Made by a program: the position numbers and the translations under genes
Shown here: piece by piece, positions 2,356 through 4,745 of the stretch
Position numbering within the stretch: position 1 is the stretch's first letter
Layout of the letters: every line of letters starts with the position of its first letter
The notes under the pieces: generated by a model
Databases searched by the model: none
What the model saw: only the letters and a program-made list of their open reading frames with translations
What the model was told of the DNA's origin: nothing
NCBI RefSeq assembly: GCF_017539065.1
Contig: NZ_JAFYHP010000026.1
Span: forward strand, 1-64,000
Reading direction: 5' to 3'
DNA length: 64,000 nt
Source: Methanobrevibacter sp.
GTDB lineage: Archaea; Methanobacteriota; Methanobacteria; Methanobacteriales; Methanobacteriaceae

Positions 2356-3318
2356 TTATTTCTTAAATTTGTCAAAATGTCTTTTTATGGCTTTTTCGGA
2401 CACGTCTTCAAAATCATCTTGGGGAACTTCTTCAACGACTTCCTCATAATAAATGTCGCGTTCATTATGAGGATAGTAATCCTCGTTTCTATAGGAATAA
2501 TCATCCCTTACTTGATTATAATGCCTGCCTTGGGAACGGCCATTTTGGCGGTTATGATATCCTGCATCATAAGGTTCATAATCATACTGATGCCTTGGGG
2601 GTTGGTTTTGTGAAAAATCTTCAGGATAATATTCATATTCCCTTCTTGGGGAGTAATTTCTCTCATGGGTTATTGGGGTGATTGGCTCGAATTCGTCATA
2701 GTAATCATTTCTTCCCAAGTAATCCTCATCCTCGGATAAAAGTCTTTCATGAGGTTCATATTGTGGAAATCTTTGAGGAGGAGCCTGAAAACTTCTTGGC
2801 CCAACCATTCTTGAGAATATGATCTCTTCAACTTCTGATGGATTTGATATGTTGCTTAACTCCAACAGATTATTGTCATAAGCACTGAATACTGAAACAG
2901 AGCCGACATTGAAAATCTTTTCAAGAATATTTTGAGAAGTATTGAGATCCTGAATTGTAGAATAAGGCATGTAATTTTTTTTAGTGGACAATACACCGGA
3001 TTTAATAATAATTTTTGTATCAGTTAAAATGTATTCAACTGAATACCAACCTATCAATTGCCAGATTATGTAAATAACATTGACAAGGATTATAACAAAA
3101 AAGGCAATAGCTAAATAACTTGTTAGGGGAAGTTTAATATAGGATATTAAATAAACTTGCATTTTCCCTATAAACTTAATAGCAATAGGTGAAAGTGATA
3201 AAATAACTATTAATAAAATAACTCCAAAAATTGCTTTCTTACAACCTAAAAGCATATTCGGCTTAGTTTGATAGAGTATTCTATCAGCAGTTCTTCCATC
3301 TTTATTATTAAATAACAT
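2356..3318 (-). CDS. membrane protein with bacterial-PH-like domain and long disordered acidic tail
   Basis: 320 aa. Two hydrophobic segments (about residues 28-52 and 68-92) are followed by a compact domain of about 80 residues that reads like a bPH_2/YdbS-type PH domain (YSVEYILTDTKIIIKSG, then TIQDLNTSQ and a segment ending SVFSA). From about residue 175 the chain is low complexity, rich in Tyr, Asp, Glu, Arg and Pro, with no fold visible. It heads the three-gene minus-strand group with the reductase and Trm-G10 genes. The PH domain is an inference from pattern; the long tail is unusual and may be a cytoplasmic interaction region. Confidence 0.65.
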   Translation of the reverse strand: MLFNNKDGRTADRILYQTKPNMLLGCKKAIFGVILLIVILSLSPIAIKFIGKMQVYLISYIKLPLTSYLAIAFFVIILVNVIYIIWQLIGWYSVEYILTDTKIIIKSGVLSTKKNYMPYSTIQDLNTSQNILEKIFNVGSVSVFSAYDNNLLELSNISNPSEVEEIIFSRMVGPRSFQAPPQRFPQYEPHERLLSEDEDYLGRNDYYDEFEPITPITHERNYSPRREYEYYPEDFSQNQPPRHQYDYEPYDAGYHNRQNGRSQGRHYNQVRDDYSYRNEDYYPHNERDIYYEEVVEEVPQDDFEDVSEKAIKRHFDKFKK

Positions 3319-3371
3319 AATTATACATTGAATTTACTTTTAAATAAAGTTTTAGTAAAAAAAGATATTAA

Positions 3372-3437
3372 AATAAGCCTCAGCTCGCCCATCATTCATC
3401 ACATATCAGAGCTCATAGGGTTCATCATAGGCTTATT
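3372..3437 (-). ncRNA. C/D box sRNA (2'-O-methylation guide)
   Basis: On the minus strand, in order: stem AATAAGCC (3437-3430), box C ATGATGA (3428-3422), a 12-nt spacer (3421-3410), box D' CTGA (3409-3406), 3 nt, box C' GTGATGA (3402-3396), a 12-nt spacer (3395-3384), box D CTGA (3383-3380), and the closing stem GGCTTATT (3379-3372). The 8-bp terminal stem is perfect. Boxes, order and 12-nt spacers are the textbook archaeal double-guide layout. It begins 12 bases after the pan stop codon and is followed by a run of seven T, so it is probably processed from, or terminates, the pan transcript. Confidence 0.85.
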
Positions 3438-3449
3438 ATTTAATTAGAT

Positions 3450-4706
3450 TTAACCAAACATTACGCCAGCTTCTGTTTTGAACAATTCATCTTCTTTAGA
3501 TTTGCTCATAACTTTATCAATAGCATCCATAAAGTCATCTACGGTAATCTTATCACGTTTTTCACGAATTGCAAACATACCGGCTTCAGTACATACTGCT
3601 TTTAAATCTGCACCAGACAATTCATCAGTTAGCTCAGCAAGCAAGTCAATATCTGCTTCTTCATCTAGTGACATGTTTTTAGTATGGATTTTAAGAATTT
3701 CGCGTCTTCCATCTATGTTCGGAAGTGGAACTTCAATGAATCTGTCAAAACGACCTGGACGTAAGAGTGCAGGGTCTAGAATATCCGGCCTATTGGTTGC
3801 ACCTATAATTCCAATGTCTCCTCTTGATTCAAATCCATCAAGTTCTGCTAAAAGTTGCATTAAAGTTCTTTGAACTTCCCTGTCTCCACTAGTTGAACTT
3901 TTAAGTCTTTTAGCGGCTACAGCATCTAATTCATCTATGAATATAATGGCAGGAGCTTTTTCCTTTGCAAGTTCGAATACTTCGCGAACAAGCCTTGCCC
4001 CTTCTCCAATGTATTTTTTAACGAATTCAGAAGCAACGATTTTGATAAAAGTTGCATTAGTTTCATTAGCTACCGCTTTAGCAAGTAAAGTCTTACCTGT
4101 TCCCGGCGGACCATATAACAATATACCTTTAGGCGGTTCAATACCTACCTTTTCGAATAGTTCCGGTTCAGTTAATGGAAGTTCCACAGTTTCTTTCACT
4201 TCTCTGATTTGTTCTTCCAAACCGCCGATTTGCTCATAAGTAATGTCCGGTTTAGTTTCTATTTCCATTCCAGATACATTTGCATCTTTTTCTGATGGTA
4301 ATACTTCCACAATACCAAAGGTTTGTTGATTTAATGCTACCCTTGAACCAGGCACTAATAATTTTTCATCTAAGAATTTTGAGTAATTAACAAGAAAACT
4401 AGGTCCAGTACTGCTTTTCACGGTCATTCTGTGATCATCTAAAACTTCTGTAATAGTAGCGAGTACTAAAGGAGGGGATCTGAATCTATCCACTTCGGAT
4501 CGTAAGGATTTAGTTTCTCTTTCAAGTCTAATTTTTTCATTCTCAATTAAGACTTTATCCTTTTCTAATTTCCTAACTTTCCACATTAAGTTACTTTTAG
4601 CTTTGGATTTTTCTTCTCTTAAAAGAACAATTTCCTCTTTTAAAGATTCAACTTGTTCAATTAATTCCTCTTTTGAAGAATTTTCCAAATCGTTAAAATC
4701 ATTCAT
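3450..4706 (-). CDS. pan: proteasome-activating nucleotidase (PAN)
   Basis: 418 aa from the ATG at 4706, chosen because GGAG lies 9 bases upstream; an in-frame TTG at 4715 has no such site. The chain has an N-terminal coiled coil (about 12-75), an OB domain (about 77-145), then an AAA+ ATPase with Walker A GPPGTGKT near residue 199 and Walker [10 protein letters not shown] near 256. It forms the hexameric unfoldase that feeds substrates to the 20S proteasome. The C-terminus ends VMFG, so the usual hydrophobic-Tyr-X gate-opening motif appears as Met-Phe-Gly. It is divergent from the MBF1 gene and followed by a C/D box sRNA. Confidence 0.95.
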
Positions 4707-4745
4707 GTGAATCAACTCCAGTTAGTTAATATATTTCTACAATAT

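Follow-up and report, generated by a model that had tools for sequence, protein, structure and literature searches.

The minus-strand element at positions 3372 to 3437 of the window (the whole 64,000-nt stretch of Methanobrevibacter sp. DNA that was analyzed) is very probably a canonical archaeal double-guide C/D box sRNA whose D' guide directs methylation of C34 in the elongator pre-tRNA-Met. The sRNA is the Methanobacteriales counterpart of the known guides for C34 of tRNA-Met, its mechanism being one known from Haloferax. What goes beyond the routine is that both guides are frozen across the order, that the intron appears to be used for specificity, and that a fold switch in this intron is possible. 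The outcome is a specific guide-target pair that can be checked and that applies to an entire order of methanogens from guts and the environment. No description of this sRNA in Methanobacteriales was found in the open-licence literature, supplements excluded, and older predictions may exist.

The sRNA gene, its conservation and its position behind pan

Direct reading of the minus strand gives, in 5' to 3' order, the first strand of a terminal stem, AATAAGCC (3430-3437), a single T, box C, ATGATGA (3422-3428), the 12-nt D' guide ACCCTATGAGCT (3410-3421), box D', CTGA (3406-3409), the spacer TAT (3403-3405), box C', GTGATGA (3396-3402), the 12-nt D guide ATGATGGGCGAG (3384-3395), box D, CTGA (3380-3383), and the second strand of the stem, GGCTTATT (3372-3379), which closes it with 8 bp. 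This bears out the claim of an earlier note on this DNA that the exact archaeal C/D layout is present, as the boxes, both 12-nt guides and the stem are all as described there. The C/D box layout, with no stem demanded, occurs once in the window and in none of 300 dinucleotide-preserving shuffles. A strict C-D'-C' pattern has two matches in the whole 1.84-Mb assembly, one being the sRNA and the other having a D'-C' spacer of 1 nt; as this strict pattern matches only twice, canonical double-guide C/D sRNAs would seem to be very few in this genome. Rfam returned no match in the window at gathering scores and, at relaxed scores, listed 44 matches, mostly to C/D box families; the best was sR1 (38.4 bits, gathering score 45), with sR2 at 37.5 (42), snoPyro_CD at 27.9 (45) and sR49 at 14.5 (50). 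All of these are below gathering, which would place the sRNA outside every curated Rfam family. The assignment to the C/D class is supported by conservation, by covariation of the stem, and by the presence in the same genome of the fibrillarin and Nop5 genes, which are adjacent and in tandem.

The sRNA was sought in other genomes with a pattern that required a C box, then a guide carrying TATGAG in register, then a D box. The earlier note had proposed checking whether related Methanobrevibacter genomes have the block conserved at this position, and such a block was found in 64 of the 67 genomes of the genus and in 138 of the 150 genomes of the order, where it covers three families and the backward control gives 2; among the order genomes that are at least 90% complete it was present in 89 out of 90. 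One genome from another order of the same class also carries the pattern, behind pan, and all 43 exact matches in a named genome collection were from Methanobrevibacter. Of the 12 order genomes lacking the pattern 11 are less than 90% complete, and the exception (G074) also yielded no full tRNA-Met. Genomes G005 and G033 (89 and 77% complete) have the tRNA-Met with no sRNA found; conversely, G136 and G140 carry the sRNA and yielded no full elongator tRNA-Met; as the genomes are drafts, these gaps may be read as missing sequence. That an intergenic sequence should resemble a C/D box RNA by chance alone is hardly credible given the shuffles, and is refuted by the conservation of a near-invariant element in 138 of 150 genomes.

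Reading of 146 loci yielded 137 complete sRNAs, three that are truncated by contig ends (L150, L154 and L156, intact up to the end and excluded from the 137) and six that are not sRNAs. Loci L367 and L372-L375 were discarded as fortuitous, since they fit the guide pattern but lack the remaining parts of the sRNA, and L158 (in G033) was a weak match without an sRNA. Box C reads RTGATGA in 137/137 complete copies, a form which the reading pattern itself required, and boxes D', C' and D are likewise found in the copies of relatives. The D' core CCCTATGAGC (guide positions 2 to 11) is identical in all 137 complete copies and the D core TGATGGGCGA in 136 of them. In both guides positions 1 and 12 vary around the frozen positions 2 to 11, as if they outlined a ten-pair duplex, while stem and spacer drift. 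This fits the ten-pair guide-target duplex of archaeal C/D RNPs. The freezing of both guides across an order contrasts with the rapid evolution of archaeal guides that is stressed in the accessible text of a review (PMC7994747). The D'-C' spacer is 3 nt long in 108 of the 137 copies and 4 to 6 nt in 29. The terminal stem covaries: across 53 distinct stems 354 of 424 positions are paired, against a mean of 297 and a maximum of 318 with shuffled partners (2000 trials), with the outer pairs 6 to 8, counted from the box side, kept only in part. The base at position 1 of the D guide (G, A or T) depends on the genus (L269-L280, L352-L356 and others), and that at position 12 (A, C or T) on the lineage.

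Directly upstream on the same strand lies pan, encoding the proteasome-activating nucleotidase (3450-4715, minus strand; TIGR01242, 634 bits, cut-off 500), the stop codon of which (3450-3452) is 12 nt ahead of the sRNA stem. Upstream pan on the same strand was found in 135 of the 137 copies; in the remaining two, a contig end lies within 90 nt of the start of the sRNA. Between the pan match and box C there are never more than 290 nt, and about half of the copies have under 30 nt, so that a separate promoter for the sRNA would in most cases hardly fit; together with the conserved order this makes expression linked with pan plausible, as the earlier note had suggested, and pan the probable co-transcribed gene. 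According to the accessible text of PMC7994747, most of the archaeal C/D genes reviewed there give RNAs that are processed out of longer transcripts. It could also be argued that the element mainly regulates pan, as an L7Ae-bound kink-turn within its 3' untranslated region, with no guide function. The regular presence of pan upstream agrees with this, but such a regulator has no need of two frozen 10-nt guides and an exact tRNA target, and there are copies in which more than 100 nt separate the element from the end of the pan match, so that we consider it extremely unlikely.

A run of seven T (3357-3363, minus strand) may be an archaeal transcription end, and relatives have T-runs there too. 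The gene directly downstream of the sRNA encodes a bPH_2-domain protein (2356-3318, minus strand); ahead of its start, relatives within the genus share a TTTATTTA-like block that may be the promoter of that gene. The same strand also carries, three genes downstream of pan, a TIGR01177-family methyltransferase (115-1146; 355 bits, cut-off 317), a family which we take to be the archaeal tRNA G10 methyltransferase group, and this gene is probably a tRNA modification gene.

The D' guide and the elongator pre-tRNA-Met

Of the near matches in the genome to the complement of the D' guide, AGCTCATAGGGT, one falls in a tRNA (GGCTCATAGGGT at C14:12618). This site sits in a 110-nt match to the tRNA covariance model, which ARAGORN resolved as a tRNA-Met(CAT) in which a 36-nt intron follows CTCATA. 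It should be noted that ARAGORN run without introns found no tRNA at the near-match loci of both guide targets and missed the tRNA-Met in L002, which was recovered by the covariance model. The D' guide spans the exon-intron junction between GGCUCAUA and GGGU, covering exon bases 30 to 37 and intron bases 1 to 4, and because the last four target bases are intronic the target is CTCATAGGGT rather than CTCATAACC. All 12 positions pair, with one G-U, the best result among 31 tRNAs (strand picked by the T-loop), and the base given by the N+5 rule, five bases from box D', is C34. The proposal of the earlier note that C34 of a tRNA-Met is a candidate target is upheld, and can be sharpened to the elongator precursor.

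Two other tRNAs share the sequence GCTCATA in the anticodon loop, which in both continues with AACC: the initiator tRNA-Met (L103) and tRNA-Ile(CAU) (L093). The former was recognized by its G-C-rich anticodon stem, a criterion for initiator tRNAs in the accessible text of PMC7668247, and the latter by our own reading. The computed duplex energy of the D' guide is -21.0 kcal/mol at the pre-tRNA-Met junction, compared with -10.7 for the spliced tRNA-Met, -10.8 for the initiator and -11.6 for tRNA-Ile(CAU). Judged by this complementarity, it is through the intron bases that the guide is predicted to discriminate the elongator tRNA-Met from the two others with the same anticodon loop. The sRNA and the tRNA-Met are on different contigs (G000:C25 and G000:C14), the guide being thus encoded outside the tRNA intron.

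In the mechanism that we infer the sRNA would probably be trimmed from the pan transcript and assembled into an sRNP with L7Ae, Nop5 and fibrillarin, the D' guide would pair with the intron-containing elongator pre-tRNA-Met across its 5' splice junction, and fibrillarin would add a 2'-O-methyl group to the wobble base C34 following the N+5 rule. Since three of the ten core pairs involve intron bases, methylation should come before splicing, and the initiator tRNA-Met and tRNA-Ile(CAU), which have no intron there, should be passed over.

On the target side, we collected 86 tRNA-Met loci (58 from the genus and 28 from other genera) with 36 distinct introns. The intron starts with GGG in 86/86 and with GGGT in 85/86 loci, and intron bases 5 to 12 vary. 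Bases 2 and 3 face CC in the intron stem and so may be held by the splice motif rather than by the guide; T4 faces a T in 68 of the 86 loci and is therefore not accounted for by the intron stem. Guide position 12 tolerates mismatch, with a guide T against an intron T in G080 and an intron G against a guide A in G067, neither of them compensated. Covariation between guide and target is absent, since hardly any variation exists on either side.

Guides for the same base are known from several systems, here taken from the accessible text of the sources. In Haloferax volcanii a C/D RNA guides modification of C34 in the elongator pre-tRNA-Met with intron bases taking part in the pairing (PMC2584109, PMC5372725; the Cm34 guide is that of Joardar et al. 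2011, as cited in PMC5372725). Alike are the separate C/D RNA, the base, the intron-containing precursor and the pairing of intron bases; this likeness is one of description and not of aligned sequences, Haloferax is of another lineage, and the cited title speaks of "unique features", whereas the Methanobacteriales sRNA is a plain double-guide RNA located behind pan with a second guide that is frozen order-wide. Pyrococcus sR49 (Rfam RF01303) is a predicted guide for Cm34 of tRNA-Met (PMC2584109) and so has the same predicted target, but its Rfam model scores only the 14.5 bits given above. In the archaeal pre-tRNA-Trp, C34 of the intron-containing precursor is also addressed by a C/D guide (PMC2584109, PMC7994747), the difference being that there the guide is formed by the intron itself, whereas the Methanobacteriales tRNA-Met has its guide encoded by a separate gene. 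Human SNORD97 and SCARNA97 are two eukaryotic C/D guides for C34 of the elongator tRNA-Met (PMC6601510) which pair with the anticodon stem-loop, and in the accessible text no reading of an intron is mentioned.

A candidate ribosomal target for the D guide

Aligning the guides to the 31 tRNAs, as the earlier note had suggested for tRNA genes, placed the D' guide on the pre-tRNA-Met but failed to place the D guide; the best core match of the latter was 9/10 with three G-U, and a tRNA target was rejected. As the D guide is as conserved as the D' guide, it probably has a target of its own. A search with rRNA families in five genomes of the genus gave one partial SSU and no LSU, these stretches being written as N. 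In the rRNA operon of Haloarcula, used as a stand-in, the sole site matching the D core at 10/10 is the 23S A-loop TCGCCTATTA (L294:10865), with two G-U, and shuffled D cores match this rRNA equally well in 8.3% of cases. The N+5 base would be what we take to be C2558 in E. coli numbering. What we presume to be the methanogen A-loop would pair better with the D guide (one G-U), which we do not count as evidence. The stand-in result weakly suggests the 23S A-loop as the best candidate target.

A ribosomal site for the D guide raises the question of whether the sRNA might be mainly ribosomal, the D guide serving on rRNA as a methylation guide or folding chaperone and the pairing with pre-tRNA-Met being secondary or unused. 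The D core is indeed as frozen as the D' core and the A-loop is its only complete match in the Haloarcula operon, but an equal rRNA site is also obtained with one in about twelve shuffled cores, and a mainly ribosomal role sits badly with a D' core that is invariant in 137/137 copies, a perfect junction site and a register putting C34 at N+5. We regard it as very unlikely, and retain C34 of the elongator pre-tRNA-Met as the target of the D' guide.

According to the accessible text of PMC4644070 (Dennis et al.), the A-loop is predicted to be methylated at U2552 and C2556 in other archaea but not at all in Methanococcus maripaludis. A literature search by the letters of the A-loop sequence found nothing. 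For the tRNA-targeting sRNAs of Pyrobaculum one guide is used and the other is without a target, according to the accessible text of PMC7994747; in the Methanobacteriales sRNA, by contrast, both guides look to be used.

Folding of the tRNA-Met intron

The tRNA-Met intron of this genome (L109:1539-1574, on G000:C14) and related introns contain a segment complementary to a strand of their own exon, GGTTAGAGCGC. This strand comprises the 3' part of the D-arm and the start of the anticodon stem, and the complementary segment lies between the splice ends of the intron. A literature search and the accessible text of PMC7714728 showed no description of such an intron-exon helix. Our hypothesis is that the intron may let the precursor alternate between two folds, one accessible to the guide and one competent for splicing. 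The intron segment (GUGCUCUGAC-like) would pair with its own D-arm strand GGUUAGAGCGC, leaving the anticodon loop and the 5' splice junction open for the guide, and later refolding would give the tRNA shape with a splice-competent bulge-helix-bulge, by which methylation would be timed before splicing. It is kept as a hypothesis because the introns are related, the exon is invariant and the folding energies are rough (37 C, without proteins or modifications). If real, the conserved helix would make directly testable a way for the guide RNP to reach an anticodon that is buried in the splice motif.

We also considered the broader proposal that one sRNA joins tRNA and ribosome, with the D' guide acting on C34 of the elongator pre-tRNA-Met, the D guide on the 23S A-loop (the docking site for the acceptor end of the A-site tRNA), and the tRNA-Met intron providing a fold switch that times methylation before splicing; taken as a whole this is tentative and rather unlikely.

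Among the 36 distinct introns of the 86 loci, 32 could form an intron-exon helix of 9 to 11 continuous pairs, the exceptions being those of L239/L240, L319, L320 and L322. The segment occurs in the forms GTGCTCTAGC, GTGCTCTGAC and GCTCTAACC, all of which pair with the exon strand. Shuffled intron bodies reached at least 8 pairs in 3.9% of cases, and of four control stretches one gave 5 to 8 pairs and three mostly none. When three pre-tRNAs were folded the helix was part of the minimum-energy fold, which was 1.8 to 3.4 kcal/mol under the fold with enforced tRNA arms. Accessibility was computed for 26 pre-tRNAs only, in which the mean unpaired probability of the guide target was 0.48 with the real introns and 0.27 with shuffled ones.
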